DNA of 64,000 nt, taken from NCBI GenBank assembly GCA_902793465.1, contig CADBDT010000001.1, positions 62,001-126,000 of the forward strand. Reading direction: 5' to 3'. The first letter of the stretch is position 1; every line of letters begins with the position of its first letter. Source of the DNA: an uncultured Coriobacteriaceae bacterium (GTDB lineage Bacteria; Actinomycetota; Coriobacteriia; Coriobacteriales; Atopobiaceae). Below, piece by piece: positions 6,548 to 42,105 of this stretch. A program made the position numbers and the translations under genes. The notes beneath the pieces were generated by a model. The model had not been told where the DNA came from. It saw only the letters and a list, made by a program, of their open reading frames with translations, and searched no databases.

Positions 6548-8163
6548 ATGCCCTCCTCAATAATGCGATACACAAGGTCCATGTTCATGCTGGCGCGAAT
6601 GCCTTCGGCCAGGAGGTCGAGCTGCTGGTTGCGGTAGGCGGCCATGTCTATGCCGGAGATGCTGCGTACACTCCGGGGTAACACCCCTGTGCGTACTCCG
6701 TTGGGGTACACCCAGGGGTGGCACCCCGGAGTGTGCGCAGCGCCGTCATGTCCTGGGGTGTTCCTGGGCAAATCGCGACATACGGCCAAGCCCTTTGCGT
6801 GCAGGAGCGCTTCCACCAGCGCCTGGCCTGCTTCCGGTTCGTCAAAGAGGCCGTGTAGGTAGCAGCCGTACACGTTGCCCAGTGCGCAGCCGTCCTCGCG
6901 CACCTGCCCGTTGTTGCTACGAATGGTGAGCAGGGCCGTACCGCTTTCGCGTGTGGTCGTGCCCATGTGAATCTCGTATCCGCTTACCGTGGCGCCTTCC
7001 ATCTGTGCGAGGGGGCCGCCTATGTCCTGTACCTTTCCGTACGAGCGCACCGTGTGCTTGCTTTTTTCAAAGGTGGTGCGCACGGGCAGGAGTCCCAAGC
7101 CATCCATTGTGCCGCCACCCTCTGTGCTGCATGGGTCTGCAATCGATAGGCCCAGCATCTGGTAGCCTCCGCAGATGCCGAGCGTCGGCGTGCCATGCGA
7201 GGCGGCGTTGCAAAAGGCGTCCGCGAGCCCGGTGTCGCGCAGCCACTGCAGGTCGCGCAAGGTGGACTTGGTGCCGGGCAGCACGAGCAGGTCGGGGTCT
7301 CCCAGCTCGCTGGGACGGCTTACGTAGCGCACGCCCACAAGGTCGTGGGCGGCGAGCGGCGCAAAGTCGGTGTAGTTGGATATGCGCGGCAGCCGCACCA
7401 CGGCCACGTCCAGCACCTTGTTGTGAGAGCGCACGTTAAGCTGTTCGGACAGGCTGTCCTCCTCGTCCAGGTCTAGGTGCATGTATGGCACCACGCCTGC
7501 CACGGGCACGCTCATGCGTTGCTGCAGGATGCTTACGCCCTCGTCGAAGAGCGAGATATCGCCCCTAAACTTGTTTACAACCGAGGCCCTAACCATATGG
7601 CGCTCCTCGGGCTCGAGCAGCTGGAGTGTGCCTATGAGCTGGGCAAACACGCCGCCCCTGTCTATGTCTCCCACCAGGAGCACGGGTGATTGCGCCATTT
7701 GGGCCATGCCCATGTTTACTATGTCGTCGCGCTTGAGGTTGAGCTCCACCGGGCTCCCCGCACCCTCTATGAGCACCACGTCAAAGTCGGCCGCAAGCTC
7801 CCCGTAGGCATCCATTATGGTTTTGCGCAGCGAGCCGCGATACCCAAAGTATTCGCGTGCGGCCATGTTTGCCACGGGCTTGCCGTTAACAACAACCTGG
7901 CTGCCCGTGTCCGTGGTGGGCTTAAGGAGTATGGGGTTCATGGCAGCACGCGGCTCGGTTCCCGCCGCCTCGGCCTGCAGCGCCTGGGCACGACCCATCT
8001 CCAGGCCCTCGTCGGTGATGGCCGAGTTGAGCGCCATGTTCTGCGACTTAAACGGTGCCACACGCACGCCGTCCTGTGCGAGCACCCTGCAGAGCCCGGC
8101 CACGAGCAGGCTCTTGCCCACGCCAGACATTGTGCCCTGGATCATAAGCGGCTTGGCAGTCAT
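6544..8163 (-). CDS. cbiP: Cobyric acid synthase (glutamine amidotransferase) with palindrome insert
   Basis: Amidates four side chains of adenosylcobyrinic diamide. The 539-residue protein has an N-terminal P-loop ATPase domain (MIQGTMSGVGKSLLVAG), then a C-terminal type I glutamine amidotransferase domain with GICGGYQMLG (catalytic Cys) and a late GCYLHGLFDEPE. Residues about 474-500 are encoded by a palindrome (6661-6740), adding a Pro/Gly-rich insert before the last helix. An AAGGAAGGT Shine-Dalgarno precedes the ATG at 8163. Coupled by ATGA to cobD upstream and to cbiC downstream. Confidence 0.94.
   Translation of the reverse strand: MTAKPLMIQGTMSGVGKSLLVAGLCRVLAQDGVRVAPFKSQNMALNSAITDEGLEMGRAQALQAEAAGTEPRAAMNPILLKPTTDTGSQVVVNGKPVANMAAREYFGYRGSLRKTIMDAYGELAADFDVVLIEGAGSPVELNLKRDDIVNMGMAQMAQSPVLLVGDIDRGGVFAQLIGTLQLLEPEERHMVRASVVNKFRGDISLFDEGVSILQQRMSVPVAGVVPYMHLDLDEEDSLSEQLNVRSHNKVLDVAVVRLPRISNYTDFAPLAAHDLVGVRYVSRPSELGDPDLLVLPGTKSTLRDLQWLRDTGLADAFCNAASHGTPTLGICGGYQMLGLSIADPCSTEGGGTMDGLGLLPVRTTFEKSKHTVRSYGKVQDIGGPLAQMEGATVSGYEIHMGTTTRESGTALLTIRSNNGQVREDGCALGNVYGCYLHGLFDEPEAGQALVEALLHAKGLAVCRDLPRNTPGHDGAAHTPGCHPWVYPNGVRTGVLPRSVRSISGIDMAAYRNQQLDLLAEGIRASMNMDLVYRIIEEGI
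6661..6740. repeat. Palindrome inserted in frame in cbiP
   Basis: Arms of about 29 bases (GCTGCGTACACTCCGGGGT and near-complement ending GTGTGCGCAGC) enclose a 23-base loop. It is translated without a stop near the CbiP C-terminus. Confidence 0.9.
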
Positions 8164-9191
8164 TGCGTTACCTTCCTTAGGGCGCGAACCAGTAGGTCGT
8201 TTTGAGGCGCCGTCCTTATGGCCACACGCAGCCACCGCATGTCCAACTCGCAAAAGTTGTTGCAGGGTCGCGCCAGGATTCCTTGGCAAAGCAAGCGGTC
8301 ATACATACCCGCGTCGGCCTCAAACAGCAGGTAGTTGGCCTCTCCGGGCACCACGTAAAGGCCCAGCGACTGCAGTTCGCGCATTAGGTGAGTGCGCTCT
8401 CGCGCAATGGTGCCGCGACTTCGCTGCAGGTAGGTCTTGTCTGCAAGCGCCGCCACGCCCGCAAGCTGGGCTGGAACGCTTACCGCCCAGGGCTGGCCAG
8501 CCTTGCGTAGGTTGGACAGAAGCCTGGCATCGGAGCACAGGGCGTAGCCTACGCGAAGCCCGGCAAGGCAAAATGACTTGGTAAGTGCCTTTACTATAAC
8601 GAGGTTCGAGAACCGTTGAAGGAGATCGTTTGAACCCTTATGGGATGTGAGGTCAATAAAGCACTCGTCGAGCACTACCGTTGCGCCCTGCACTTTTGCC
8701 CGCTCCAAGAGTTGCTCCAGCACGTCGCGTGGCACGCAGCGTCCCGTGGGGTTGTTGGGGTTGGCCACAAACACGATGTCTACGGATTCGCGAAGCTCCT
8801 CTACGACGCGCTCGGTTACGGCAAAGTCCTCCTCTTTTTGGAGCGCGTGGTGGGTTAGGCGCGCGCCTACAAGCTCGAGCGCCTGCTCGTAGCCAGAGTA
8901 GCAGGGATCGCAAACCAGCGCATTGGTTGGCCTCAGGGCCAGGCATATGCGGGCGAAGGCGTCCGTTGCGCCTGCGCAGGGGAGCACCCATTTGCGTGGC
9001 ACATGCTCAAAGGTGGCAAGCGCGCTCGTAAGCTCGCGGCATTGCGGATCGGGATACGCCTCGCATGCGTCTGCGCACGTACGCAACGCGTCGCGAGCCG
9101 CCGCGGGCATACCCAGCGGGTTGAGGTTTGCTGAGAAGTCCACGCAGTTGGGATGCTCGTATATGTTGCCGCCGTGCTCGTATTGCCTCAC
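8160..9191 (-). CDS. cobD: PLP-dependent threonine-phosphate decarboxylase / histidinol-phosphate aminotransferase family
   Basis: Fold-type I PLP enzyme of 343 residues. In this operon it most likely decarboxylates L-threonine O-3-phosphate to the aminopropanol phosphate arm. It shows the N-terminal VDFSANLNPLG typical of CobD, ANPNNPTGR, a DECFIDLT Asp, the KALTKSF Schiff-base Lys and GLRVGYAL with the phosphate-binding Arg. It starts with GTG at 9191, 8 bases after GGGAGG and just past the cbiB TAA. Its end overlaps cbiP. Confidence 0.88.
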   Translation of the reverse strand: MRQYEHGGNIYEHPNCVDFSANLNPLGMPAAARDALRTCADACEAYPDPQCRELTSALATFEHVPRKWVLPCAGATDAFARICLALRPTNALVCDPCYSGYEQALELVGARLTHHALQKEEDFAVTERVVEELRESVDIVFVANPNNPTGRCVPRDVLEQLLERAKVQGATVVLDECFIDLTSHKGSNDLLQRFSNLVIVKALTKSFCLAGLRVGYALCSDARLLSNLRKAGQPWAVSVPAQLAGVAALADKTYLQRSRGTIARERTHLMRELQSLGLYVVPGEANYLLFEADAGMYDRLLCQGILARPCNNFCELDMRWLRVAIRTAPQNDLLVRALRKVTQ

Positions 9192-9192
9192 G

Positions 9193-10164
9193 TTAACGCC
9201 TCCCTCTTGCGGTTAGCGCCAGCGACAAGCCCGCGGACAGTACGAGCGCGGCAACGCTGGTGGCAGCCAACAGTTGCGTGGAGCGGGAAATGTCGTCGGT
9301 CTCCACGGGACGCAAGTCGTCGCCGATGGTGGGCTTGTTATGCACCTTTCCAAAGTAGCTCGCAGGTCCCGCCAGCTGCACGCCAAGCGCGCCGGCGCAT
9401 GCCGCCTCGGGATGTCCTGCGTTGGGGGAGGCATGACGCCTGCGGTCGCGGCGAAGGATGCGCCACGCGCCCTTGCCGTCTAACCCCACCACCGGCGCCA
9501 CAAGGCACATGAGGAGTGCCGTAACGCGCGCGGGGATGTAGTTGAGCGCGTCGTCTGCGCGCGCGGCTGCGGTTCCAAAGTGGTGGTAGCGCTCGTTCTT
9601 GTATCCCACCATGGAGTCCATGGTGCTTACGGCCTTGTACAGCATTCCTGCCGGTGCGCCTCCCAGAGCTAGGTACAGCAAGGGGGCGACCACTCCGTCG
9701 GAGGCGTTTTCGGCCACCGTCTCCACGGTGGCGCGCACGATGCCAGCCTTGTCCAGGTCCTGCGTGTCGCGCCCCACGATCATGCTTACCGCAGCGCGAC
9801 CCGCCTCCACGCCCTCGCGCTCTAGTGCGTCGCGCACCTTGAGTGCCTCCACGCCCAGCTGTCGCGCGGCGATTGCCTGGTAGCACAAAAGCGTCTTAAC
9901 GGCGAAGCCAAGCGCGGGGCTCGCCGATCGTGCCGCCCTGAGTACGAGGCTCGTTGCCACGTACGAGCCGCCTGCCACCACAGCGACAAGCGCCGCCCCA
10001 GCAGCGTGCTCGCCTGCACGTGTTTTGGGGAATGCCTTGCGCAGCACAGGCTCCAGTCGCGATATGGCGAAGCCCATAAGGCGTACGGGATGCGGCATGC
10101 TATACGGGTCCCCCAGTAGGGCGTCCAGCGCAAAACCGCAGGAAATCGCGAGTGTTTTTGTCAT
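9193..10164 (-). CDS. cbiB: Adenosylcobinamide-phosphate synthase
   Basis: Membrane protein that attaches the aminopropanol (phosphate) arm to cobyric acid. The 323-residue sequence has the N-terminal ALDALLGDPYSMPHPVRLMG, the ATVETVAENASDGVVAPLLYL signature and AVSTMDSMVGYKNERY, all standard for CbiB/CobD(Pseudomonas type). Several hydrophobic helices are present. The ATG at 10164 overlaps the cbiA stop. Confidence 0.94.
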   Translation of the reverse strand: MTKTLAISCGFALDALLGDPYSMPHPVRLMGFAISRLEPVLRKAFPKTRAGEHAAGAALVAVVAGGSYVATSLVLRAARSASPALGFAVKTLLCYQAIAARQLGVEALKVRDALEREGVEAGRAAVSMIVGRDTQDLDKAGIVRATVETVAENASDGVVAPLLYLALGGAPAGMLYKAVSTMDSMVGYKNERYHHFGTAAARADDALNYIPARVTALLMCLVAPVVGLDGKGAWRILRRDRRRHASPNAGHPEAACAGALGVQLAGPASYFGKVHNKPTIGDDLRPVETDDISRSTQLLAATSVAALVLSAGLSLALTARGRR

Positions 10165-11552
10165 TGTGCGCGCCTCCCAAAGCTGGTTGCAAACGCGGTG
10201 CAGGCATCCACAAAACGCCGTGCTGCCTCCTGATGCGCGGGAAGGTACAAGTGCGGATATCCAGCGTAGAGCGTGCGCGTGTGCACTCCCGTAATCCAGC
10301 CGCGCTCGCTCTGCGGCTTTTGCGCGCAAAAGGCCTTTCCGGGTGCGGTGGAGTCCCAGTAGTGAAACTCGTGAGCGCACAGGGTGTTACCACGATTTGC
10401 CAGAAGACCGTCCTGCTGAGCTTCCAGAGACACATAGCCAAAGCGTACCAACCGCGACTTCCCAAAGCTGCGACCCTCAAGTGCGCCCACCATGGGCCAC
10501 GACGTTCCGTGGTCGTCTTCCAGCGACTCCTGCAGGTACATAAAGCCGCCGCACTCGGCAATCGTGGGCATGCCATCGCGCACTGCCGCGCGCACGCATT
10601 CGAGCATGGGGGCGTTTTTGCTCAGCTGCTTGGCGTGCAGCTCGGGATACCCGCCGCCAAGGTACAGCCCGCTCGTACCTTTGGGCAGGGCTTCGTCCTC
10701 TAGCGGGCTAAAGAACGCCAGCTGCGCACCCAGCCGCTCGAGCAGTGCGAGCGCATCGGTGTAGTAGAACGCAAACGCCGCGTCGCGCGCAACCGCAACA
10801 ATGGGTCGGTCGTGGGGTGTTTGCGATGATGGGTCTTCCCACGGCTCCACCTCTAGGTCCTCCGCTGTGATTGCAATGCGAATGAGCTTGTCCAAGTCTA
10901 TGGTGCGGCTCAGTTTGGCGGCAACGGAGTCGAGCTTTTGCCTAAGGTCCGCTATCTCCGCAGGCGCGACCAGACCCAGATGGCGGCTGGGGAGCTCGGC
11001 CTCGCTCAGATGCGGAACGTATCCCAGCACGCAGACCCCCGTCTCGCGCTCCACAGCCTCTTTGAGCAGGGGATAGTAGCTCTCCGATACGTGGTTTAGC
11101 ACCACGCCCGCAATGTGGGAGGGCTGCCGCAGTTGCATGAAGCCCACCACCTCGGCAGCAACGGAAAGCGCGCGACCGCGGGCGTCTACCACCAGCACCA
11201 CGGGTGCGTTCAAAGCGCATGCCACGTCGTAGGTCGACGCGCGGTGGCTGCAGGCAATGCCGTCGTAGTAGCCCATTACGCCCTCCACCAGCGTGAGTTC
11301 TGCATGGCGCGCGCCCTCCGCTACAAGCTGGCGAGCTAGTGCGGCATTGCCCAAAAACAGGTCTAGGTTGCGTGACGGGGTGCCCAGCACCTCCTGGTGA
11401 AAGAGCGGGTCCAGGTAGTCGGGGCCGCACTTGGCGGCCTGCACGCGCAAGCCGCGGCCTACCAGCGCACGCAGCAGTCCACACGTTACGGTGGTCTTGC
11501 CCGCGCCGCTCCTTGTTGCGGCAACGATTATGCGAGGTGCATGTACCCGCAT
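10161..11552 (-). CDS. cbiA: Cobyrinic acid a,c-diamide synthase
   Basis: ATP- and glutamine-dependent amidation of the a and c side chains. The 463-residue protein opens with a P-loop (IIVAATRSGAGKTTVTCGLL) and has the amidotransferase core with GLYLGGGYPELHA and TIAECGGFMYLQE (catalytic Cys). A late HEFHYW supplies the conserved His. Length fits CbiA/CobB. A 4-base gap separates it from cbiET, and its end overlaps cbiB by ATGA. Confidence 0.95.
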   Translation of the reverse strand: MRVHAPRIIVAATRSGAGKTTVTCGLLRALVGRGLRVQAAKCGPDYLDPLFHQEVLGTPSRNLDLFLGNAALARQLVAEGARHAELTLVEGVMGYYDGIACSHRASTYDVACALNAPVVLVVDARGRALSVAAEVVGFMQLRQPSHIAGVVLNHVSESYYPLLKEAVERETGVCVLGYVPHLSEAELPSRHLGLVAPAEIADLRQKLDSVAAKLSRTIDLDKLIRIAITAEDLEVEPWEDPSSQTPHDRPIVAVARDAAFAFYYTDALALLERLGAQLAFFSPLEDEALPKGTSGLYLGGGYPELHAKQLSKNAPMLECVRAAVRDGMPTIAECGGFMYLQESLEDDHGTSWPMVGALEGRSFGKSRLVRFGYVSLEAQQDGLLANRGNTLCAHEFHYWDSTAPGKAFCAQKPQSERGWITGVHTRTLYAGYPHLYLPAHQEAARRFVDACTAFATSFGRRAQ

Positions 11553-11556
11553 GGCC

Positions 11557-12795
11557 TTAGCCTCTCTCTTCGCAATCCTCGCGAGCGCCCTCGGCGCTTA
11601 TCACATACACGGGGTTGTTCGCGCGCAACAGGTTGGAGGCACCCGCTTTGTGTGCCTTGGCAACGCTCAGCTGCACAATGTCCACGTTTGCCAGGTCCAG
11701 CTCGCGGGTGCAGCGCACGGCTTCTCCCAGCGTCTCTAGCGTAACGGCCGTTATGCACAGGCGTGCGCGGGGGTTGGCCGCAAGCACCGCGCGCAGCACG
11801 TCCTCGAGCCTGCCGCCCGATCCGCCCACAAACACGCGGTCCGGTGCGGGAAGGCTGGCCAGCACGTAGGGAGCTTCGCCTTCCACCACATGCAGGTTGG
11901 GCAGACAGAAGGCCTCCTTGTTGCGGCGGAGCAGATCCTGCGCCTGCGGGCTTCTTTCCACCGCGAACACCTGGCCCTCGCAGGCAGCGCGCGCTGCCTC
12001 CACGCTTACCGAGCCCGTGCCCGCACCTACGTCCCACACCACGTGGTTGGGCGCAATACGCAGCTTGCAGATGGCAACCTCGCGTACCTCCTCTTTTGTC
12101 ATGGGCACCCGCTCGCGCAGGAACGCTGAGTCGGGGAGGTGCGGCGCGCGCACGTGGGGCGCAACGGGTGTGGGGTTGAGCACCAGGAGCGCCGAGAGCG
12201 CATGGAAGTCCTGGTCGCTTAGCTCGGCCGCCGTGCCGCTTGTTATGCGCTCGTCCGCATACGAAAGACGCTCTCCCACGTGTACCGTAACGTTGCCGAG
12301 CTCGCGCTGCACCAGCTGCTCGCAGATGCCGCGTGCCGAAGACGCACCCGTACCTGCAAGCACGAACGTCTTGGCGTGGGACTGCACGGCGCCCGTCACG
12401 TCGCTCGTGCGCCCGTGGGCCGACACAACGTAGGCGTCGTGCCAAGCGGTGTGCAACTGCGCGCAGAGGTAGGAGAGGGACGAGACGCCCGGAAGCACCT
12501 CCACGCTGGCGTCCAGGCTTTCCAGCCGCTCGTACAGCTGGTTTGCCCCGCTGTAGAAGCCCACGTCGCCGCTCATTACCACGCACGCCCGCTGCGCCTG
12601 GCACTCATGCAGCGCGTGTACGATCTTGTCTGCACCCACGAGGGGCTTCTTGTGAGCGTCGAAATCCGAAAGGGCGTCCAGCAGTCGCTGCGCTCCGATG
12701 ATAAGATCGCAGTCCTCGAGTGCCTGTTGTGCGGCAACCGTGAGCGTGTTGGGGTTGCCCATGCCAATGCCTATTATGTACAGCTCACGCACCAT
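11557..12795 (-). CDS. cbiET: Bifunctional cobalt-precorrin-7 C5/C15 methyltransferase-decarboxylase
   Basis: A fused enzyme of 412 residues. The N-terminal half (about 1-200) is a tetrapyrrole methyltransferase (CbiE) with IIGIGMGNPN and GDVGFYSG. The C-terminal half (about 220-400) is a class I SAM methyltransferase (CbiT) with VWDVGAGTGSVSVEAA and GGSGGRLEDVL. It methylates C5 and C15 and decarboxylates the C12 acetate. It overlaps the end of the cbiGHJ gene by 11 bases. This fusion is common, unlike the palindrome-bridged one upstream. Confidence 0.94.
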   Translation of the reverse strand: MVRELYIIGIGMGNPNTLTVAAQQALEDCDLIIGAQRLLDALSDFDAHKKPLVGADKIVHALHECQAQRACVVMSGDVGFYSGANQLYERLESLDASVEVLPGVSSLSYLCAQLHTAWHDAYVVSAHGRTSDVTGAVQSHAKTFVLAGTGASSARGICEQLVQRELGNVTVHVGERLSYADERITSGTAAELSDQDFHALSALLVLNPTPVAPHVRAPHLPDSAFLRERVPMTKEEVREVAICKLRIAPNHVVWDVGAGTGSVSVEAARAACEGQVFAVERSPQAQDLLRRNKEAFCLPNLHVVEGEAPYVLASLPAPDRVFVGGSGGRLEDVLRAVLAANPRARLCITAVTLETLGEAVRCTRELDLANVDIVQLSVAKAHKAGASNLLRANNPVYVISAEGAREDCEERG

Positions 12796-15472
12796 AGCGT
12801 TCCTCCAAGTGCTGTTTGGCCTGCTCCAACAGGAGCCCCTCGTATGCCTGCGGGCGACGTATTACCACCAGCTCTGCTCCGCACTCACGCGCCGCCTGTG
12901 CCTTTTGCTCAAAGCCTCCCGCCTGTCCCGATTGCTTGGTTACCAGGTAGCGCGCGTCCACCTCGCGCAGGAGCGCGGCGTTGAGCTGGGCAGAAAAGGG
13001 CCCTTGCATGGCAATAACGTGATCCACGGGCACACCGAGCTTGGCCACGCGCGCAACGGACGTGGGTACGGGAAGCACGCGCACGTAGAGGCGCTGCTCA
13101 AAGTGGGGGAGTGCCTCCGTAAAGGCTGCGAGGTCCTTGCTGCCGGTGGTTAGGAGGACGTTGCCCTGCGTTGTTGCGAGGTAGCGGGCTGCCTCCTGCG
13201 CGCTGGAGACCGTGGTGCAGCTGTCCGCGTCCGCCTCCTCGCGCACGATGCGCACCACATCCGTGCCGTAGGTGCGTGCGAGCTCGTTGATGCTTGTCGA
13301 TATGTGCTGCGCAAAAGGATGTGTGGCATCCACTATGCACGCGAAGTCGTGGCTCTCCATAAGCTCGCGCTTCTTACTGGCGTTCAGGGGTCCGCGCACG
13401 GACTGGACGCGCGCTCCCGTTGGCAGCAGGCTGGAGCCGTACTCCGTGGCCGTGCACGCCACCACGTTGCAGGTGCCGCGCGCGTCGAGCCATTCCACCA
13501 GCTCGCGTCCCTCGGAGGTTCCGCCGAATACCAGGATCTCCCTGCACCTATCAAGGGGGAGTACCCCTCTTGATTGGTGCCTATCAAGAGGGGTACTCCC
13601 CCTTGATAGGTTTGCGTACCCGCGGGGCGTTACCATGCGCCCGTCTATAATGCGGGTCTGGGCGTTGCCCACGTACACGCAGGTTCGCATGTCTGCAGGT
13701 GCGTTGGCGAGTTCTCGCAGCAAAAGCACGCGGCCGCACTCGCCCGTGCGTCCCACGTTTTGGACAATGCCACATACGGTATCGGGTTGCAGATGGCGCA
13801 GCAGAACGTCGCAGGCTTTGCGCAGGTGGTCCGCACGTCCGCGCGACGCAGGGTTGTACAGGCAAATGCACATGCCGGACTCCGCTGCTGCCTCCAGGCG
13901 CTTTTCGATGGCGTCCCAGGGGGTCATGAGGTCGGAGAGCGATATGCAGCACCAGTCGTGCATGAGCGGCGCACCCAGAATGGCCGCGCCTCCCGTGGCT
14001 GCCGTAACGCCTGGCACCACGCGCACCTCTACGTTTTCCATTCCCTCGGCTAGCTCGAGCACGAGTCCAGCCATGGCATACACGCCCGGGTCGCCCGAGC
14101 ACACTACGGCAACGCGCTTGCCCGCCTGCGCCTGTTCGAGTGCTTGGCTGCAACGCCGCACTTCGGAGCGCATGGGGGAGCGCACCAGCTTTTGCGGCGG
14201 ATAGTCGTTGCGTATAAGGTCCACGTAAGTGGAGTATCCCACTATGAGGTCCGCTTGGTCTAGCGCCTTACGCGCCTGTGCCGTCATCTGGTCTCCCGCG
14301 CCGGGGCCCAGTCCCACGCAGGTTACGAGGCCGCGGGGAAAACCACAAATGGGGGGCTGTCCCTTAGGTGTGGTTTTGTCCGAAACCACAACTTGGGGAC
14401 TGCTCCCCATTTGTGGTAGGAGCCCGCCGCAGGCAAGAGCAACGGTAACGCCGTCGCATGCGTGCTTGCCTAGCAGCAGGGTTTCTTTGCACGCGCACGC
14501 GGCGCGCTCGCACACGTTGTCTACGCCTACGGTCTGGCGAACGAACTCCGAAGAGCAAAAGGTCCCAGGGACGGAGACCAGCTCGTCCGCGCTGTGCACG
14601 CGCAGCTGCCAGCCGCGCTGTTCGCAAAGCTCAAGGAGGCCGGGCTCGCTTGCCTTTACGTCTATGGTTGCCAGGGTGGCTACGGCTTGCGGCGCAACGT
14701 GCGCCTCTTCCAGGCAGGCGTCCACCAGCGCGGCTATGCTGCTCGCAGGTGTGTCGCGCCTGCATCCCACGCCTACCGTAACCGTTTGCGGAACAAGGTG
14801 GAGCGTGCGCTGGAACGGGCTTCCCTGCGCGTCGAGGGAGATAAGGATTCCGCAGCGAGCGGTCTTGTCGTTAGCCAAAAGGCCGTCTGGGAGGTTGCGC
14901 ATAAACGCGTCCAACTCCGTGTTTGGGGCCGTGCCGGCAGCCACGAGATCGCAGGCAATGCCTACGTTCCCGCCTTCCAAAAGCGTTGCGGATACCTCCT
15001 TGACAACGTCGTGCTCCAAAATGGCCATGTTGTGCCGCGTTGCCCACTCGTCCACGGCAAAGACCCCGCGTACGTCCGTCGCCGTGGTAATGGCTGCCTG
15101 CGCGCCGCATGCAGCGGCCACGCGCCGTGCCAGCTCGTTGGCCCCACCTACGTGGCCGCTCAGGAGCGGAATTGCAAACGAGCCCGCCTCGTCCACGCAC
15201 ACCACGGCAGGGTCCTCGTACTTGTTGCGCGCCAAAGGTGCCACCGTGCGCACGGCAATTCCGCAGGCACTCACAAACAGCAGCGCATCTGCCTGCACCC
15301 ATGCGTCGCGCACCCACGCGTCCAGGCTTTCGTAGGGCGCCAGGCCCAATGCGGACGCAATGCGTGCGGGACCGCTGAGAGCGCACGAGTCGCCATGTGC
15401 CTCCAACGTGCGCGCTATGCGGCTTGCAAGCTGCATGCCATCTCTGGAAAACGCAACAAGCTTTACTCGCAT
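12785..15472 (-). CDS. Trifunctional CbiG-CbiH-CbiJ fusion with palindromic linkers
   Basis: An 895-residue polypeptide with three complete corrin enzymes. CbiG (about 1-350) opens the delta-lactone: SACGIAVRTVAPL, LLSGHVGGANELAR and the C-terminal GVGCRRDTP domain. CbiH (about 385-618) is the C17 methyltransferase with CVGLGPGAGDQMT and CSGDPGVYAMAG. CbiJ (about 645-895) is the precorrin-6A reductase with ILVFGGTSEGREL and a TTGSKDLAAF segment. Both interdomain linkers are translated exactly from palindromic repeats: 14342-14417 (residues about 352-377) and 13547-13610 (about 621-642). Separate genes are the usual arrangement, so the repeats appear to have joined them. Start ATG at 15472; it overlaps cbiF by 10 bases. 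Confidence 0.93.
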   Translation of the reverse strand: MRVKLVAFSRDGMQLASRIARTLEAHGDSCALSGPARIASALGLAPYESLDAWVRDAWVQADALLFVSACGIAVRTVAPLARNKYEDPAVVCVDEAGSFAIPLLSGHVGGANELARRVAAACGAQAAITTATDVRGVFAVDEWATRHNMAILEHDVVKEVSATLLEGGNVGIACDLVAAGTAPNTELDAFMRNLPDGLLANDKTARCGILISLDAQGSPFQRTLHLVPQTVTVGVGCRRDTPASSIAALVDACLEEAHVAPQAVATLATIDVKASEPGLLELCEQRGWQLRVHSADELVSVPGTFCSSEFVRQTVGVDNVCERAACACKETLLLGKHACDGVTVALACGGLLPQMGSSPQVVVSDKTTPKGQPPICGFPRGLVTCVGLGPGAGDQMTAQARKALDQADLIVGYSTYVDLIRNDYPPQKLVRSPMRSEVRRCSQALEQAQAGKRVAVVCSGDPGVYAMAGLVLELAEGMENVEVRVVPGVTAATGGAAILGAPLMHDWCCISLSDLMTPWDAIEKRLEAAAESGMCICLYNPASRGRADHLRKACDVLLRHLQPDTVCGIVQNVGRTGECGRVLLLRELANAPADMRTCVYVGNAQTRIIDGRMVTPRGYANLSRGSTPLDRHQSRGVLPLDRCREILVFGGTSEGRELVEWLDARGTCNVVACTATEYGSSLLPTGARVQSVRGPLNASKKRELMESHDFACIVDATHPFAQHISTSINELARTYGTDVVRIVREEADADSCTTVSSAQEAARYLATTQGNVLLTTGSKDLAAFTEALPHFEQRLYVRVLPVPTSVARVAKLGVPVDHVIAMQGPFSAQLNAALLREVDARYLVTKQSGQAGGFEQKAQAARECGAELVVIRRPQAYEGLLLEQAKQHLEERYGA
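13547..13610. repeat. Family A palindrome forming the CbiH-CbiJ linker
   Basis: Perfect 28-base arms (CCTATCAAGGGGGAGTACCC...) flank an 8-base loop. The 64-bp element is nearly identical to 40584-40647 and 42042-42105. Both this copy and 40584 have GCA on the left and TTT on the right, so the element may extend a few bases. Read in frame within a coding region. Confidence 0.93.
14342..14417. repeat. Palindrome forming the CbiG-CbiH linker
   Basis: The outer arm ACCACAAATGGGG and its complement enclose a second stem (GTGTGGTTT / AAACCACA). It is read in frame as a Gly/Pro/Ser/Gln-rich linker. A partial relative (ACCACAAGTGGGAGG) precedes the F2 element near 18234. Confidence 0.9.
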
Positions 15473-16245
15473 TGCCGTTCCTCCTGGTCCGTTGCCAAGG
15501 CCGCACGGTACTCGTGGCCAAACGCCGGGCTGTACAGATGCGACCGCGTGCCATGTGCCTCAAGTGCGTTGCCAATAAGGACCATGGCGGTCTTGCGCAC
15601 GTTGTTGTTTTGCGCGCATTGGGCCAGCGTGCCCACCGTACACCTATACACCCGCTCGTCTGGCCAGGTGGCACGCACCACCAGCGCAGCGGGCGTATCT
15701 TCCTCATATGCGCCGGCCAGCAGGTCCTCCTGGGCCTTATCTAGCAGGGCTGCCGACAAGAACAACGCCATGGTGGACCCATGTGCCGCAAGCTCGCGCA
15801 GCTGCTCGCGCTCAGGCACGGGCGTGCGGCCCTGCGCGCGCGTGACTATGAGCGTTTGCGATACCTCGGGAACGGTGAGCTCCGCGCCAAGTGCTGCCGC
15901 TGCGCCAAAGAGCGACGACACGCCCGGTACCACCTGGTAGTCCACATCCGCCTCGTCGAGCTTGTCCATCTGCTCGCGAATGGCGCCGTAGAGCGCGGGG
16001 TCACCCGTGTGCAGGCGCACGCACGCCTTGCCCGCGCTGGCTGCCTCCACAAGGATGCTGGTGGTCTGGTCCAGCGTCATGTGTGAGGAGTCGTGGATCT
16101 TGCACGTGGGCTTGCACGAGGCCAAAAGCTCGCGGTTTACGAGCGAGCCTGCATACACCACCACGTCTGCCTCTGCCAGCAGCCGTGCGCCGCGCAACGT
16201 TATGAGGTCGGCCGCGCCCGGCCCTGCTCCCACGAAGTAGATCAT
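15463..16245 (-). CDS. cbiF: Cobalt-precorrin-4 C11-methyltransferase
   Basis: SAM-dependent methylation of C11. The 260-residue protein has MIYFVGAGPGAADLITLRGA, VVYAGSLVN, LHTGDPALYGAI and VPGVSSLFGAAA, the ordered motifs of the CobM/CbiF family. The start at 16245 overlaps the cbiD stop by ATGA. Longer upstream frames would add a Pro/Arg-rich non-family extension. Confidence 0.95.
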   Translation of the reverse strand: MIYFVGAGPGAADLITLRGARLLAEADVVVYAGSLVNRELLASCKPTCKIHDSSHMTLDQTTSILVEAASAGKACVRLHTGDPALYGAIREQMDKLDEADVDYQVVPGVSSLFGAAAALGAELTVPEVSQTLIVTRAQGRTPVPEREQLRELAAHGSTMALFLSAALLDKAQEDLLAGAYEEDTPAALVVRATWPDERVYRCTVGTLAQCAQNNNVRKTAMVLIGNALEAHGTRSHLYSPAFGHEYRAALATDQEERQCE

Positions 16246-17420
16246 GCGTCGGGCTCCTTTCGGTGGAGGGGGGACGGCATGTCCCGGAACGTATGCCGTT
16301 CCATGAGCTCCTGGGCGCCGTCGGTCTGGCCAAGGAGTCCGTGCTGGTTGGAAAAGACGATAGCCTCCACGCAAAGCGAGTCCGCGGCACGCCTACGAAG
16401 GTGCTCGCCGAGTCGCTGCACGAGCGATGCCATCGTCTTCTGCAAAATGCCCCTTTGGGCAAGCAGGTCGAGCATGGCGTCGGTGGTAACCGCTTCCAGC
16501 AGCGCCGCTATGATCGCGACGTCCGCACCGGCCAACGCCGCGTGCGTGGCAAGCGCCTCCGCCCTGCAGTCGGCCACGCGCGAGTGGGTGTTCATAACGC
16601 CTGCCGCCACCTTTGCAAGCTTGCCAATGTGGCCCACGAGCAGCAGGGACGTAAACCCCAAGCGCCCTGCCTCGTCTATGGTCTCGCCCAGGTAGTTGGA
16701 GCACACCACGGCATCGCACGCGTCCAAGCCCAGCGACTCGCGCGCAAACGTCTTGCCATAGTTGCCAGGCACCACCAGCACGTGCTCCATGCCCTCGCTG
16801 CGACGCACGGCGAGCTCCAGCTTTATGGAAGACACAAGCGCGTCCTCGCTCATGGGGCGCACGATGCCGGTCGTGCCGAGCACCGAGATTCCTCCCTCTA
16901 TGCCAAGGTTGGGGTTAAAGGTGCGCTTTGCCAGCTCTACGCCAGCGGGGATGGAAATCCGCACGCTCAGCCCGCCAGCGTGGCCATGCTCGTTTGCCGA
17001 CTCCTGCGCCGCATTGCGAATCATGGCACGGGGAACGCTGTTTATGGCCGCGTTTCCCGGCGGCTGGTCGAGCCCCGGCTTGGTAACAACGCCCACGCCC
17101 TCGCCGCCCAGAACCACAACGCCTGGCTCCGAGGTGCGCTGCACCTCGGCCCACACCAGCACGCCATCGGTAACGTCGGGGTCGTCGCCTGCGTCCTTGC
17201 GAACGGCGCAGCGCGCCCAGCCGTCGCCGCGCTCGCACTTCTCTACGTCCACAACCACGGTTATGCCTGCGGGAGTCTGGATGCAGACGGCAGGCGGAAG
17301 CTCGTTTGCCAGCAGCAGGTCCGTTGCCGCACGCGCGGCCGCAGCGGCGCACGTGCCTGTGGTGTAGCCGCAGCGCAACAGCTTGCCGCCGGCGCTTACG
17401 TATTCCTCCAGCCGCCTCAT
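16242..17420 (-). CDS. cbiD: Cobalt-precorrin-5B C1-methyltransferase
   Basis: Anaerobic-route enzyme that methylates C1 during ring contraction. The 392-residue protein has the N-terminal LRCGYTTGTCAAAAA signature, EGGISVLGTTGIVRPMSE near residue 180 and a GHIGKLAKVAAGVMNTHS segment near residue 265, all characteristic of CbiD. Length is normal. Its ATG overlaps the stop of the BtuCD fusion. Confidence 0.95.
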   Translation of the reverse strand: MRRLEEYVSAGGKLLRCGYTTGTCAAAAARAATDLLLANELPPAVCIQTPAGITVVVDVEKCERGDGWARCAVRKDAGDDPDVTDGVLVWAEVQRTSEPGVVVLGGEGVGVVTKPGLDQPPGNAAINSVPRAMIRNAAQESANEHGHAGGLSVRISIPAGVELAKRTFNPNLGIEGGISVLGTTGIVRPMSEDALVSSIKLELAVRRSEGMEHVLVVPGNYGKTFARESLGLDACDAVVCSNYLGETIDEAGRLGFTSLLLVGHIGKLAKVAAGVMNTHSRVADCRAEALATHAALAGADVAIIAALLEAVTTDAMLDLLAQRGILQKTMASLVQRLGEHLRRRAADSLCVEAIVFSNQHGLLGQTDGAQELMERHTFRDMPSPLHRKEPDA

Positions 17421-19438
17421 CGTGCGCTCCTTTGATTCGCGTCTGTACCTGCGGATTTGCTGTTAGGCAGCGCATCCAGCGCAATGGTACCCGTGTGCGC
17501 ATCGTAGCTGCCGGGCTTTAGGTCGTAGAGCTTGTTTATAACCTGCGGTTGGCAGATTTCCTGCGGAGTGCCCTGCGCCGCTATGGCGCCGTCCTTAACG
17601 CACGCCAGCCAGTCGGAGGCCTCGCGCGCGAGCGAGAGCTCGTGCATGGTCATAATTACGCCCACGTTGCGCGAGCGAACCAGGTATCGCAGCACCTCCA
17701 AGAGCTCGATTTGATACCGGATGTCCAGGTAGCTCGTGGGCTCGTCCAGCATAAGGATGCGCGGTTCCTGGCATATGGCCCGCGCGAGCATAACGCGCTG
17801 GCGCTGCCCGTCCGATATGTGCATAAAGTCGCGTCCTCGCAGGTCCCATACGCCCACCAGCTCCATGGCGTCGCGCACTGCCTCGTGGTCGCGCTCCTGC
17901 AGGATGCCGAGGCTGCCCGTGTAGGGGTAGCGTCCCGCCTCGACCACGTCCTCGCAGGTTAGCAGGTTTGTTCGCGGCCGCTCGGTTAGCAGCACAGAGC
18001 GCTCTTGCGCGAGTTCTCGCGCGCTCATGCCGGCAAGGTCGCGCTCGCCCATGAGCACCGTGCCACCAAGGGGCGCAAGCTCGCCCGCGAGCGTCTTGAG
18101 TATGGTGGACTTGCCTGCGCCGTTGGGTCCAATAAGGGTTACGACGCTTCCCGGGCTTACCTCCAGCTCAACGTTGCTTACCAGCGGGTTTGCGTCGTAG
18201 CCAACGGCTAGGTTGGTGGTGCGGAGGGTGGGACCACAAGTGGGAGGCGCTCCCCCCGACGCGTGGTCTGTGAGTGGGGTCAGGTCGCGAGGCGGCCGCA
18301 TAAGGTGTTCGTGCTCAAACAGTGCTCGTTCCTGCGGAACTGCGCGCGAACACTCTTCTGCGACCGCCTCGCGACCTGACCCCTCTGTTGTGACTGCTTT
18401 GCTTTCTACCCGCGGGGACCTCCTGCTCTGCAGCAGAACCCAAATGACCACGGGGGCGCCAAGCGCCGCGGTAACGGTAGACACCGTCATTTCTGTGGGC
18501 GCAAACGCACAGCGGGAGATAAGGTCGCACAGCAGGCAAAAGGCCGCTCCGCCCAAAAACGAGGCCGGCACCACCTGCAGCGGCCTGTTTGTGCCCAGGG
18601 CGTTGCGCACGAGGTGCGGCACGGCAATGCCCACAAAGCTAATGGGTCCCGCATACGCGGTAACGCAGGCAGAAAGCACGCTGGAAAGGAGGATGAGCGC
18701 GGCTCTAAACGCACGGATGTTAACGCCGGCACTTTGTGCGTACTGCTCGCCCAAAAGATAGGCCCCCAGCGGCTTGGAGAGCAAGAACACGCAGGCACTG
18801 CAAAGCAGCACGACTACACTCATGCCGGCAACATCGGACCAGCTGGTGCCCGAAAAGCTTCCCATGGACCAGTTGCGTAGGTTAACGATGCTTGCGTCGC
18901 TGGCAAAGGTTATTACGAAGTCCGTCATTGCGTTGCACAGGTAGCCTATCATCACACCCACCACAATGAGCATGCTCGACGACGTTATGCGCCGCGATGC
19001 GAGCATTACGAGGCCGGTAACCGCAAGCGATCCCAGCGTGGCGGCTAGTATGCTCATCCACGAGGTCATTACGCCTGTGGCGCCCACGACCACCACCATA
19101 AGGAGAGCCACGGCAAGCTTGGCTCCGTGCGAGATGCCCAGGATAAAGGGCCCGGCAATGGGATTGTTAAAGAAGGTCTGCAGCAGCAGGCCCGAAAGCG
19201 CCAGCGCACCGCCCAACAGCATGGCGGCAACGAGGCGCGGCAGGCGAATGTCCCAGACCACCTGGTAAAAAGTGCTCGAGGTGTCTGAGCGCGTAAGGAT
19301 TGCGCCCAAGTCGTGCAAGGGCACGGCAACGCTTCCCATGCACAGGTTGGTTGCGGCAAGCGCCACCAGCAGCACGCCCAGTGCCGCGAACACCGCCGCC
19401 GTGCGTGTATGCCTTATGCCTGCGTTGCCGTCGTGCAC
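17417..19438 (-). CDS. BtuC-BtuD fusion: corrinoid/iron-type ABC permease joined to its ATPase
   Basis: A 673-residue protein. Residues about 1-340 form a FecCD/BtuC-type permease with many transmembrane helices (PRLVAAMLLGGALALSG, GISHGAKLA, SFVGIAVPHLVRN). Residues about 408-650 form an ABC ATPase with Walker A IGPNGAGKST, a signature read as ISDGQRQRV and Walker B RILMLDEPTSYLD. These are normally two proteins. The roughly 58-residue linker is translated from the F2 palindrome (18276-18383) and adjoining repeat. It starts with GTG at 19438 after GAGGGAGGG. With btuF upstream it should import corrinoids, or possibly heme or siderophore. Confidence 0.92.
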   Translation of the reverse strand: MHDGNAGIRHTRTAAVFAALGVLLVALAATNLCMGSVAVPLHDLGAILTRSDTSSTFYQVVWDIRLPRLVAAMLLGGALALSGLLLQTFFNNPIAGPFILGISHGAKLAVALLMVVVVGATGVMTSWMSILAATLGSLAVTGLVMLASRRITSSSMLIVVGVMIGYLCNAMTDFVITFASDASIVNLRNWSMGSFSGTSWSDVAGMSVVVLLCSACVFLLSKPLGAYLLGEQYAQSAGVNIRAFRAALILLSSVLSACVTAYAGPISFVGIAVPHLVRNALGTNRPLQVVPASFLGGAAFCLLCDLISRCAFAPTEMTVSTVTAALGAPVVIWVLLQSRRSPRVESKAVTTEGSGREAVAEECSRAVPQERALFEHEHLMRPPRDLTPLTDHASGGAPPTCGPTLRTTNLAVGYDANPLVSNVELEVSPGSVVTLIGPNGAGKSTILKTLAGELAPLGGTVLMGERDLAGMSARELAQERSVLLTERPRTNLLTCEDVVEAGRYPYTGSLGILQERDHEAVRDAMELVGVWDLRGRDFMHISDGQRQRVMLARAICQEPRILMLDEPTSYLDIRYQIELLEVLRYLVRSRNVGVIMTMHELSLAREASDWLACVKDGAIAAQGTPQEICQPQVINKLYDLKPGSYDAHTGTIALDALPNSKSAGTDANQRSAR
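18276..18383. repeat. Family F element copy 2, linker of the BtuCD fusion
   Basis: Arms GGGGTCAGGTCGCGAGGCGG and complement enclose GTGTTCGTGCTCAAACAGTG...GCGGAACTGCGCGCGAACAC, the family loop. It has no stop codon in the BtuCD frame. Confidence 0.9.
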
Positions 19439-19478
19439 GAGCCCTCCCTCGTTTTCCCTTGCCTACTTGAGTCGCCGC

Positions 19479-19613
19479 CTGACCCTAAACAAAGATCAAG
19501 AGCCTCCCGGCGCCATGGACAAGCGCCGTGCTCAGACAGTCCTCGTTCCTGCGGTACTGCGCGCGGCTGCTTTCCATGGCGCCTCACGGTTCTTGATCTT
19601 TGTTTAGGGGCAA
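19479..19613. mobile_element. Family F element copy 3 with 10-bp flanking direct repeat
   Basis: A 135-bp palindromic element with terminal arms CCTAAACAAAGATCAAGA and an inner GGCGCCATGGA stem around the family loop (GTGCTCAGACAGTCCTCG...GCGGTACTGCG). It is bounded by the direct repeat GAGTCGCCGC at 19469-19478 and 19614-19623. Removing one repeat plus the element restores a BtuF C-terminus ending Leu-Arg-Arg-Leu-Lys-stop. This is the pattern expected of transposition with target duplication. Confidence 0.85.
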
Positions 19614-20852
19614 GAGTCGCCGCAGATAGACCAAGCTTTCGTCCGACCCCTCCAAAACATGCCTGAAGTCGGAGATAATCCCGCCCGCGTTGAGCATCTG
19701 CTGGTACATGTTCTGGTCGGTTACCCACACGTTGCCGTTGCGCACCGCCTTGCATTCCTTGAGCATCTGGCTCTTTTGTAGGAGGTCGTCCATCGTGCGG
19801 ACGCCCTCGTCTATGGAGCTGTTGTATACCATTACGTCGGCGTCCTTTGCCGCGGCAAAGAACTGCTCCATCTGCATGGTGGTGGTGCTCGAGCCCGCGG
19901 TGGCCTTGTCCACGCTGCCAAAGGCGTAGGTTCCGCCTGCCTGCTCGATCATCTTGGTAACGTAGTCTCCCGGCTTGCGAACCACGGCCGCGCCGCTGGC
20001 GTTGAGGTAGAAGTAGGCCATGGACTTTCCCGTTGGCTGACCGCTTGCGGCGCTTACCTGGTCCACCTGCTGCTGGAACACCTTTTGTGCCTGGTCCTGC
20101 TTGTTGCACAGGATTCCGTAGAGCTTTATCCACTCCGCGCGGCCCAGGGGCTCGCTCTCGTAGCTCGACATTTCCACGAGTACGGGGATGCCCAGCTCAA
20201 CGAGCTTCTCGCGAACATCTGGCGCGTGGTTTATCATCGTGCTCTCGAGCGCAAGACGCACGTTGCGCGAGAGCAGCAGCTCGTAGTCGGGCGCGCGATA
20301 CTTGCCGCCGTAGACCACCTTGCCCTCGTCCATGGCGCTTTGCATGGCGGGGAGGTACCAGTCGTCGCGCTCTATACCAGAAACCGAAATGCAGTCCAGC
20401 GCATCCAGGGCGTCAAACAGGCACAGGGTGTCGCTTGCCGCCAGGTACACGTTGCCCGCAGGCTGGTTGAGCACGACAACGTCTTTGGGCAGGTCCGCCG
20501 GTGGCTGCGCGCCTTCGGGCACTACCAGATAGCGGTTGCCGTCGGCCATGCAGACCAGCACATAGCCGCCCTCGTAGATGTCCAGCGTATAGCAGCGGGC
20601 GTACTGGAGCTCCATCGACCCCGAGTGCTTGAGCGTGGCGCCGAGGTCGGTGTTGCGGAAGTCGTCCACCAGTTGGGTGGTTGCGCTTGACGCCGACGCA
20701 ATGGCCCCAGCGTTCTGGCTCGCAGGGCTGGCAGCGCAGCCAACGGAGCCGGAAACAAAGCCTGCCAAGTAGAGAACCAGGCAGAGGGCCATTATCCGGA
20801 TATGCAGGTTTTCTAACAAGCGAGCTGCTATGCGGTGCGGTCTTCTAAGCAT
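19584..20852 (-). CDS. btuF: Corrinoid/iron ABC transporter substrate-binding lipoprotein
   Basis: A 422-residue binding protein. After a basic N-terminus it has a hydrophobic segment (MALCLVLYLAGFVSG) and a Gly-Cys lipobox, then a Ser/Ala linker and a two-lobed periplasmic-binding-protein domain of the BtuF/FhuD class (PVLVEMSSYES, MIEQAGGTYAFGSVD, ADVMVYNSSIDEG). The long N-terminal basic stretch is unusual and ATGs downstream are possible. The last eight or so residues come from the F3 insertion element. It immediately precedes the BtuCD fusion and follows a surface lipoprotein gene by 23 bases. Confidence 0.82.
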   Translation of the reverse strand: MLRRPHRIAARLLENLHIRIMALCLVLYLAGFVSGSVGCAASPASQNAGAIASASSATTQLVDDFRNTDLGATLKHSGSMELQYARCYTLDIYEGGYVLVCMADGNRYLVVPEGAQPPADLPKDVVVLNQPAGNVYLAASDTLCLFDALDALDCISVSGIERDDWYLPAMQSAMDEGKVVYGGKYRAPDYELLLSRNVRLALESTMINHAPDVREKLVELGIPVLVEMSSYESEPLGRAEWIKLYGILCNKQDQAQKVFQQQVDQVSAASGQPTGKSMAYFYLNASGAAVVRKPGDYVTKMIEQAGGTYAFGSVDKATAGSSTTTMQMEQFFAAAKDADVMVYNSSIDEGVRTMDDLLQKSQMLKECKAVRNGNVWVTDQNMYQQMLNAGGIISDFRHVLEGSDESLVYLRRLLPLNKDQEP

Positions 20853-20875
20853 GCGGATCTTTGGCTCCGAAACGC

Positions 20876-21424
20876 CTATTGCGCCTGCTCGGCGGGCTTG
20901 GTGTCTGAGGCCGGCGCGTGGAATACGATGGTGTGGTCGTACCATGTGTCGCGGCGCTGGCCGTAGGTGGCTATGGACAGTTCCTGCTCGAGCGTGGACA
21001 CGGGGATGCTAAAGGTGTACTTGCCCTCGTCGTTGAGGTGGTATTCGTAGACGTCGCTACTCGACTCTTCGGCAGCCTTCTTGGCCTCTTCGGCCTTGCC
21101 AAAGTACAGCTTAGAAAAGCCCTCGCCGGGCAGCGTGAGTTCGGCCGTGTACCTTCCGTCGGTTACCGTGAGCTTGCAGGATTCGGACCTAAACATGCTG
21201 GAGTCGGTGGTTACCTCTATGTCGTAGGTGCCGTTTGCGGGCTCGTCGTAGTACGGTGCATCCACATCGGTCGCACCCGGGTCATAAACAGGCTCCGGCT
21301 CCTGTTTGCTCTCGATTACCTGCGGGCTGTTTGCGCTTGCGTTCGTGCCACACGCCGCAAGAGCGATGGGGGACGCGCTCGCCAATATGCCGGCGAGCAG
21401 AAAGGTTGAAATACGGTGCTTCAT
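20876..21424 (-). CDS. Surface lipoprotein, possible ligand-capture partner of the corrinoid importer
   Basis: A 182-residue lipoprotein (signal peptide, then ALAACG lipobox) with an acidic linker and a beta-rich domain: NGTYDIEVTTDSSMFRSES, LPGEGFSKLYFGKAEEA, YGQRRDTWYDHTIVFHA. The composition is similar in style to the Shp-like protein at 3109-3678, but the sequence is distinct. Located between cbiK and btuF, it may hand a tetrapyrrole to the transporter; this is inference. GGAG 5 bases before the ATG supports the start. Confidence 0.6.
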   Translation of the reverse strand: MKHRISTFLLAGILASASPIALAACGTNASANSPQVIESKQEPEPVYDPGATDVDAPYYDEPANGTYDIEVTTDSSMFRSESCKLTVTDGRYTAELTLPGEGFSKLYFGKAEEAKKAAEESSSDVYEYHLNDEGKYTFSIPVSTLEQELSIATYGQRRDTWYDHTIVFHAPASDTKPAEQAQ

Positions 21425-21483
21425 GGTTGCTCCTGGCTCGTTGCTCGTTCTTGTAACTGGCTGTTGGGCTTTGTGTGCGCCGG

Positions 21484-22407
21484 CTATGCCTTTGCGTCTA
21501 TAGCTGCCTTTACGTGCTGCACGTACACCTCGTCCACGTCGGCCAGCTGGCCAAGGCCTTCGAGCACGCTTTGCACCTCAAAGCCAGCGGCTGTCATCTT
21601 GGAGGCAAGTGACTCGGGGTCGGTGGTATCGGCCATGTCGTTTGTGGCATGGTCGCCGGCCACCACCATAAAGGGACGCAGTACTGCCTTGGTGTAGCCG
21701 GCATCCTTGGCGGCCTTTATCATGTCGTCGAACGTGGGCGTGGCCTCTACCGTGCACATAAAGTAGTTGTTGTAGCCCAGCTCGGTAAACAGCTGCTGCA
21801 TGGTGGCGTATATCTTGTTGGACTCGGCCTCGGTGCCATGTCCCATAAGGCAGATGGCAACGCCTTCGCCCTCGTACCGCTTGCTGGCCTCCTTTACGGC
21901 CTGTGCCACGGCCACCTGGTCTTCCTTGGACGCGAGCAGCGGCGCGCCCAGGGCGCACTTGCTAAACTTGGACTTGTAGTTTTCCAGGGACTTTGTGATG
22001 TCCTGGTACTCAAAGCCGTCCATAAGGTGGGTGGGCTGGACAATTACCTCTTTTACGCCCTCGCTCACGAGCTTGTCCATGGCCTCTTCGAAGTTGTCTA
22101 TGTGGCGGCCGGTGTCGGACTCTATGTGGTCGATTACGGTTTGGGCGGTAAAGGCGCGGCGAACGTCGTAGTTGGCATACGCCTCGCGGATGTCGGACTC
22201 AATGGCGCCTATGGTTGCGTGGCGGCTGCTTGCGTAGCTGGTACCAAAGCTCGTTACGAGGATAGCTGGCTTTGGGCCGGAAGCGGCAGACGCGGATGCG
22301 GAGGAGCCGCTGGCGCCGGCGCAGCCCGTAAGACCGGCGGAGACAAGGGCTGCCGCACCGAGGGATGCCTTGGCAAAGTTTCGACGAGACACGGATGAGA
22401 ATGACAT
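21484..22407 (-). CDS. cbiK: Exported sirohydrochlorin cobaltochelatase (CbiK type), Tat lipoprotein
   Basis: Inserts cobalt into sirohydrochlorin, the entry of the anaerobic B12 route. The 307-residue protein has an N-terminal SRRNFAK twin-arginine motif, a hydrophobic stretch and the lipobox LTGC, then a Ser/Ala linker. The chelatase domain (about 46-300) shows ILVTSFGTSYASSR, VQPTHLMDGFEYQD with a metal-binding His, ICLMGHGTEAESN and RPFMVVAGDHATNDM. Export would place cobalt insertion outside the cytoplasm, as in Desulfovibrio periplasmic CbiK. It heads the minus-strand operon, and AAGGGG precedes the ATG. Confidence 0.92.
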   Translation of the reverse strand: MSFSSVSRRNFAKASLGAAALVSAGLTGCAGASGSSASASAASGPKPAILVTSFGTSYASSRHATIGAIESDIREAYANYDVRRAFTAQTVIDHIESDTGRHIDNFEEAMDKLVSEGVKEVIVQPTHLMDGFEYQDITKSLENYKSKFSKCALGAPLLASKEDQVAVAQAVKEASKRYEGEGVAICLMGHGTEAESNKIYATMQQLFTELGYNNYFMCTVEATPTFDDMIKAAKDAGYTKAVLRPFMVVAGDHATNDMADTTDPESLASKMTAAGFEVQSVLEGLGQLADVDEVYVQHVKAAIDAKA

Positions 22408-22499
22408 TTTCTGCCCCTTTCTTCTTTGGCACGCATGCCAATGCGAGGGCAGACAAAAGCGGGAAATAGACCGCGCACAAACCCCGCCGTCCTATGACG

Positions 22500-22610
22500 A
22501 CGCGGGCATGTGCCCAAAGTACATCGACGACTGGTCCGGAGTTGAACCGGAATCCTTTTAGTGAGGCCTAACAGCTCGCAGATCGTACCCTCATGTTTTA
22601 GATGACAGAA
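22500..22610 (-). promoter_or_regulatory. Structured leader upstream of cbiK, identity unknown
   Basis: On the minus strand a hairpin TCCGG-TTCAACT-CCGGA, identical in form to a tRNA T-arm, follows a second possible stem (GAGG...CCTC). No acceptor or anticodon arm could be fitted, so it is not a tRNA. No B12-box or other riboswitch consensus was recognised. Its place about 100 bases before the operon head makes a regulatory RNA plausible. Confidence 0.3.
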
Positions 22611-22638
22611 TCATATCATCTTTTGCGCCCACGGTGCA

Positions 22639-22905: not shown

Positions 22906-22996
22906 CGCGTGGAATTCGCGGAGGGGGAGGGGGGTGTCCCCGCCATCCGACCACCCGAAAGGGTCGCGGCCTCACTGTCACCCTTGCAGGCATCCA

Positions 22997-30772: not shown

Positions 30773-30777
30773 TTGCT

Positions 30778-40579: not shown

Positions 40580-40583
40580 GGCA

Positions 40584-40647
40584 CCTATCAAGGGGGAGTA
40601 CCCCTCTTGATTGGTACCTATCAAGAGGGGTACTCCCCCTTGATAGG
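40584..40647. repeat. Family A palindrome between convergent genes
   Basis: A 64-bp copy almost identical to the one in cbiGHJ (13547-13610). It begins 5 bases after the mscS stop and ends 1 base before the stop of the minus-strand pseudogene. Confidence 0.93.
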
Positions 40648-40648
40648 T

Positions 40649-42041: not shown

Positions 42042-42105
42042 TCAATCAAGGGGGAGTACCCCTCTTGATAGGTACCAATCAAAGGGGGTACTCCCCCTTG
42101 ATTGG
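42042..42105. repeat. Family A palindrome
   Basis: A 64-bp fold-back (CAATCAAGGGGGAGTACCCC..), 27 bases after the ICMT-like stop. Confidence 0.9.

Follow-up and report, generated by a model that had tools for sequence, protein, structure and literature searches.

The CbiG-CbiH-CbiJ fusion gene of a gut Coriobacteriia bacterium has a mobile-type palindromic repeat in each of its two joints, and one of them appears to have made the joint in which it lies. In the reading that we prefer, to which we give a probability of about 60% from the comparison of gene sequences, a copy of an abundant repeat (palindrome A) at the CbiH stop codon welded CbiH to CbiJ, the CbiG-CbiH fusion being older and its own repeat (palindrome B) a later arrival. 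The routes by which adjacent bacterial genes become fused are usually inferred, the mutation itself leaving no trace, and here the joint still holds the repeat that probably caused the fusion. Within the same genus the CbiH-CbiJ junction is found open in some species, closed by a different repeat in another, and closed with no repeat elsewhere, so that palindrome-built linkers become directly testable. Intragenic REPs and Rickettsia palindromic elements are known to decorate proteins, and such a weld would add the joining of genes.

The fusion gene and its two linkers

The window (the whole 64,000-nt stretch of DNA that was analyzed) belongs to a MAG of a gut bacterium, assembled in 68 contigs and labeled G000 below. 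The domains of the stop-free 895-aa open reading frame were placed with Pfam and NCBIfam profiles (Table 1), and its two inverted repeats fill the stretches left between adjacent domains, as had been proposed for both linkers when the gene was first noticed. Palindrome A is a double palindrome of 66 bp, composed of two inverted, imperfect palindromes of ∼33 nt each. When folded as DNA, A has a z-score of −12 and B one of −5 to −7, and for each of them 0 of 200 dinucleotide shuffles folded equally well. No Rfam family matched in a search for structured RNA over window positions 8000–24000. The predicted full-length product of ∼95 kDa contains the linker-spanning peptide stretches NLSRGSTPLDRHQSR and LLPQMGSSPQVVVSDK, and the three-domain form is found in only two genomes of the family, G000 and G003.

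Table 1. Positions of the fusion gene, its palindromes and the comparison loci (window coordinates unless a contig is given), and lengths of the fused CbiH-CbiJ junctions
Feature	Position	Strand	Details
CbiG-CbiH-CbiJ fusion ORF	12785..15472	-	895 aa, stop-free
CbiG domain, residues 1–347	14432..15472	-	PF11760, PF11761, PF01890
CbiH domain, residues 383–620	13613..14326	-	TIGR01466, 305.9 bits (cut-off 246.35)
CbiJ domain, residues 645–879	12836..13540	-	TIGR00715, PF02571
Palindrome A, residues 621–643	13546..13611	.	Inverted repeat, 32-nt arms, 97% complementary
Palindrome B, residues 352–377	14342..14417	.	Inverted repeat, 35-nt arms, 86% complementary
Palindrome A, intergenic copy	40583..40648	.	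Inverted-repeat search
Palindrome A, intergenic copy	42043..42104	.	Inverted-repeat search
FecCD permease-ABC ATPase fusion ORF	17417..19438	-	673 aa, comparison case
Palindrome in permease-ATPase linker	18276..18383	.	29-nt arms, 50-nt loop
AddA-type helicase-nuclease	G000 C4:98899-102492 (L072/L073)		In-frame palindrome, residues 390–425
Y1/HUH transposase gene (Y1_Tnp, PF01797)	L067 2213-2959		248 aa, HVH motif
CbiH-CbiJ junction of G000			Fused, 75 nt, palindrome A
CbiH-CbiJ junction of G013			Fused, 96 nt, palindrome with GGGGGACTGTCCCC core
CbiH-CbiJ junction of G003			Fused, 81 nt, no palindrome
CbiH-CbiJ junction of G011			Fused, 156 nt, direct repeat

Palindrome B entered an older CbiG-CbiH fusion

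For this comparison both junctions were taken from 29 family genomes and from several others within the order. Apart from G000, 13 genomes of the family have CbiG joined to CbiH, all of them without B and most through unrelated, non-palindromic linkers (mostly 30–63 nt, G001 included); in others the two genes are split by a stop and an ATG. Since relatives are fused without B, it must have entered a pre-existing linker, and by this comparison the CbiG-CbiH fusion is an old one, older than B. The idea that B caused this fusion was therefore rejected. The original prediction, that palindromic elements fused all three genes, thus largely fails at this joint; it stands at CbiH-CbiJ, where 19 compact relatives and the genome pair G013/G015 described below speak for it.

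Palindrome B belongs to a dispersed family, a second one in this genome, with 107 half-site matches (1 in the reversed-pattern control), a recurrence that the original prediction had missed; no cognate transposase was found for the B family. A like event is seen in G002, whose CbiG-CbiH linker is ∼220 nt longer than that of its close relative G001; the extra sequence contains a palindrome of its own, which of four genomes tested was present in G002 alone. In G130 (L128), a short tandem repeat, CAGCCAGCGGCCAG, is present both in the CbiG-CbiH linker and in the CbiH-CbiJ spacer.

The CbiH-CbiJ junction in relatives

The CbiH-CbiJ junction is compact in 19 relatives, in which the unfused genes are separated by 20–22 nt that include the stop and the ATG. 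Fusion was found in only four genomes, and in 4 of 4 the junction is enlarged (Table 1); it is enlarged yet unfused in G005, G130, G014, and G010. The G005 (L013) spacer reaches 249 nt with its genes separate. The association between enlargement and fusion has a Fisher p of 0.004 with kinship ignored, and is not significant in a phylogeny-corrected sign test, which with only 3 independent pairs is underpowered. Parsimony gives four separate CbiH-CbiJ fusions, and on the junction sequences CbiH-CbiJ is a derived fusion.

A second palindrome-joined case is that of G013. Exact matches to the core of its junction palindrome number 191 in G013 and 65 in the sister genome G015, against 0–4 in the other eight genomes tested. 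This palindrome is unrelated to A, and each of the two is abundant in its own genome. The clade of G013 and G015 has support of 100/100, and the G015 junction is unfused and 21 nt long. It appears from these sequences that a palindrome-joined CbiH-CbiJ arose independently in two species, G000 and G013, with unrelated repeats. The position of G000 itself is less firmly fixed: inside an 11-genome group it falls with G001/G002 in the best tree (support 70/31), and a clade of G000 with G003 is not rejected (p-AU 0.22), so that in G000 the genes might have been fused before A arrived; G013 is free of this problem.

These comparisons bear directly on the chief alternative, which is that both fusions are older than the palindromes and that the latter are passengers that came later into insertion-tolerant linkers, as Rickettsia palindromic elements do, and caused neither fusion. 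Such a history holds for CbiG-CbiH, and the CbiH-CbiJ fusion of G003, which has no palindrome, would fit it also if G003 were the nearest relative of G000. The linkers of G003 and G000 have no evident similarity, however, and an older CbiH-CbiJ fusion is difficult to reconcile with 19 compact, unfused relatives, with the four separate fusions given by parsimony, or with G013, which gained fusion and palindrome together relative to its well-supported sister. We consider this alternative unlikely, though it gains some weight from two other genes of G000.

Palindromes inside other genes

Intragenic palindromes were counted in a 464-kb sample of G000 (the window and L068–L087) with genes called by codon usage. 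This sample contains ∼100 strong inverted repeats, 91 of them intergenic and 4 inside ORFs; the four are A and B in CbiGHJ, one in the linker of a FecCD-ABC ATPase fusion, and one in an AddA-type helicase-nuclease. As there are only four, two of them in CbiGHJ, palindromes at both joints of one protein are not the background pattern.

The other two genes show what such repeats may do elsewhere, and both favor the passenger history. The FecCD permease and ABC ATPase are fused without a palindrome in G001, G002, G003, and G007 (linkers of 75–132 nt) and are separate in ten other genomes of the genus; the G000 linker is 180 nt long including its palindrome. The AddA palindrome is a member of another abundant family (GGGGATACTCCCC...GGGTACATCGCG) and lies in a loop between helicase motifs whose length is variable: from VDEFQDTD to ATVGDAQQ it measures 234 nt in G000, whereas its relatives range from −3 to 144 nt. 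As these two genes show, palindromes can also come into linkers and loops that were already there, a behavior like that of Rickettsia palindromic elements (RPEs). The general claim that palindromes cause fusions is weakened accordingly, and CbiH-CbiJ is left as the specific case.

Two further kinds of repeat were seen in the window. Arrays of imperfect palindromic units with an exact period of 73 bp occupy six intergenic places in the 64 kb (26840–27120, 30775–31244, 34517–34662, 43052–43642, 56870–57453, and 59757–60048), with conserved GCACGC/GCGTGC parts and variable stretches between them. An inverted repeat at 19483–19609 lies at the end of the ORF at 19584–20945, whose last residues, LLPLNKDQEP, are inside the repeat.

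The palindrome A family and its probable transposase

The A half-site pattern (≤2 mismatches) has 203 matches in the G000 genome and its reversed-pattern control has 0, and the palindrome is present in ∼100 copies genome-wide. Two of these are the intergenic copies of Table 1, which bear out the proposal that one of the two linker palindromes recurs between genes. The family is biased toward gene 3′ ends: a half-site is ≤12 nt away in 28 of 63 stop-codon flanks (null mean 13.6 and maximum 21 in 2000 random placements) and in only 2 of 49 start-codon flanks. Fifteen flanks directly abut a stop codon, at a minimum distance of 3–4 nt from the half-site. The commonest ends of A are GACC and AACC, which after a T complete TGA or TAA. 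Its sequence is also often open to translation, with 169 of 258 frame-copies open versus 41% in shuffles; frames 0 and 2 are open in nearly all copies. Only 1 of the 64 distinct copies examined is within a gene, and this is the CbiH-CbiJ copy. Long open frames over other copies (C19, C8, C2, C1, and C3) were rejected as genes, these frames being unsupported by gene calls and lying beside called genes. An ATPase ORF (L067 2992–4206) beside the Y1 transposase gene reads at its end through a whole A copy (NLSRGSTPLERYQSRGVLPLER), and the read-through peptide is nearly identical to the CbiH-CbiJ linker.

G000 has only one Y1/HUH transposase gene (Table 1), and it is bracketed by A copies at L067 2148–2213 and 2994–3059. 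Y1 genes are present in 15 of 16 genomes of the genus, and in G013, G015, G004, G008, G009, and G012 such a gene stands between paired palindromes of another sequence. In our reading both A and B are dispersed repeats, short and non-autonomous; A is REPIN/TIR-repeat-like, and the single Y1/HUH transposase of G000, probably of the RAYT type, is its probable mobilizer.

Probable origin of the CbiH-CbiJ joint

On the coding strand the G000 junction reads ...GGG TAC GCA AAC CTA TCA AGG ... CTT GAT AGG TGC AGG GAG ATC CTG GTA. The end of CbiH, GCA-AACCTATC, is GCA-TAA-CCTATC less one T, the common border being T-A-A followed by CCTATC. At the position of the CbiJ start there is an AGG (AGG GAG ATC in G000 versus ATG GAG ATC in G070), and the first ATG, GTG, or TTG of the CbiJ part is residue 659, past the VFGGTSEG motif, so that CbiJ is now apparently translated only when CbiH is read through.

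The single T raises the question of whether the full-length ORF might be an artefact of the assembly or of a single strain, CbiH having a true terminal stop and A being an ordinary intergenic element, the more so as the same border pattern is found at 15 other gene-element edges and the assembly is in 68 contigs. The frame is open across both linkers, however, and a CbiJ made on its own would have no standard start codon. The loss of the ATG argues against a 1-nt assembly error that mimics stop loss in this single MAG, all the genomes compared being assemblies. An artefact of this kind is improbable. It is more improbable still, and hardly to be believed, that the palindromes were selected in place, as mRNA hairpins that tune expression of the downstream domains or as flexible linkers of a particular sequence, for although the hairpins are strong and roles in termination and in the stability of mRNA have been proposed for REPs (PMC3733652), the families at the junctions differ by genome and are the locally abundant ones, or there is none, and relatives manage without palindromes.

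The weld at the CbiH stop probably proceeded as follows. Elements such as A are mostly intergenic settlers, and A favors gene 3′ ends, often against the stop. A copy would have inserted at or near the CbiH stop in the tight CbiH-CbiJ junction of the cob operon, and with two of its three frames open it could be translated. Once the CbiH stop had gone with the single T, and the CbiJ start with the change of ATG to AGG, there would have been a single frame with the element as its linker; we infer that insertion came first and these two losses after it. B would later have entered, or replaced part of, the CbiG-CbiH linker, where extra sequence is tolerated. The exact mutational steps are a reconstruction, and one CbiGHJ polypeptide is predicted from gene sequences.

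Repeats that come to rest beside stop codons, have open frames, and can bear being translated might weld adjacent genes repeatedly, as CbiH and CbiJ in two species with unrelated repeats, and we suggest tentatively that RAYT-type repeats could be a recurrent route to multidomain enzymes from operon neighbors. Intragenic REPs are already known; for the repeat as a probable weld between operon genes no description was found in the open-access literature, nor was any report of palindrome-driven fusion of operon neighbors.

Comparison with known systems

Fusion proteins of the CbiG-CbiH kind are common enough, in that the first two domains of the G000 ORF are joined likewise in many relatives; the CbiGHJ form is not. 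As to the repeats, a Y1-type transposase gene flanked by its own repeats is known for both RAYT/REP and TIRYT/TIR (PMC2817692, PMC3733652), and REPs adjoin gene 3′ ends and often provide stop codons with their own ends (PMC3733652). Palindrome A resembles the REP/REPIN and RAYT systems in its dispersed, inverted palindrome pairs (its 203 half-sites lie in the range of tens to hundreds of copies), in the Y1/HUH gene with copies on both sides, and in its site just past gene 3′ ends, with stop codons that its own ends help to form (PMC2817692, PMC3733652). It differs from them in that the GT(A/G)G head is absent (its ends are GACCTATC/AACCTATC), in being a 66-bp double palindrome, and in having one copy that, lying where two genes meet, links their protein domains.

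The likeness to TIRYT/TIRtrons lies in the 66-nt A copies that flank a tyrosine transposase gene on both sides and in a family spread genome-wide (PMC3733652). The G013 and G015 families share the core GGGGACAG with copies of the B family. The motif GGGGWSAS, which is present in some TIR families and not universal to the class (PMC3733652), occurs in the Y1-flanking repeats of G013 and G015; A differs, reading GGGGAGTA, which does not fit it. Having no GTAG head and falling outside GGGGWSAS, A is here termed REP-like and not a classical REP.

A relation in spirit to Rickettsia palindromic elements had also been suggested for these linkers, and it holds for behavior and not for descent, as A looks RAYT-associated. 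Like RPEs, the palindromes of G000 are inserted in frame in conserved ORFs (CbiGHJ, AddA, and FecCD-ABC) at tolerant positions (PMC10969869, PMC3733652). Published intragenic REPs include some in recB and UvrD-type genes (PMC3733652), which parallel the AddA insertion (PMC10969869, PMC3733652). Compared by their ends, the elements are different, since the R. conorii RPE ends in CGTC and A in GACC or AACC. Finally, an RPE interrupts one gene, whereas the A copy marks the meeting point of two genes which most relatives keep apart.
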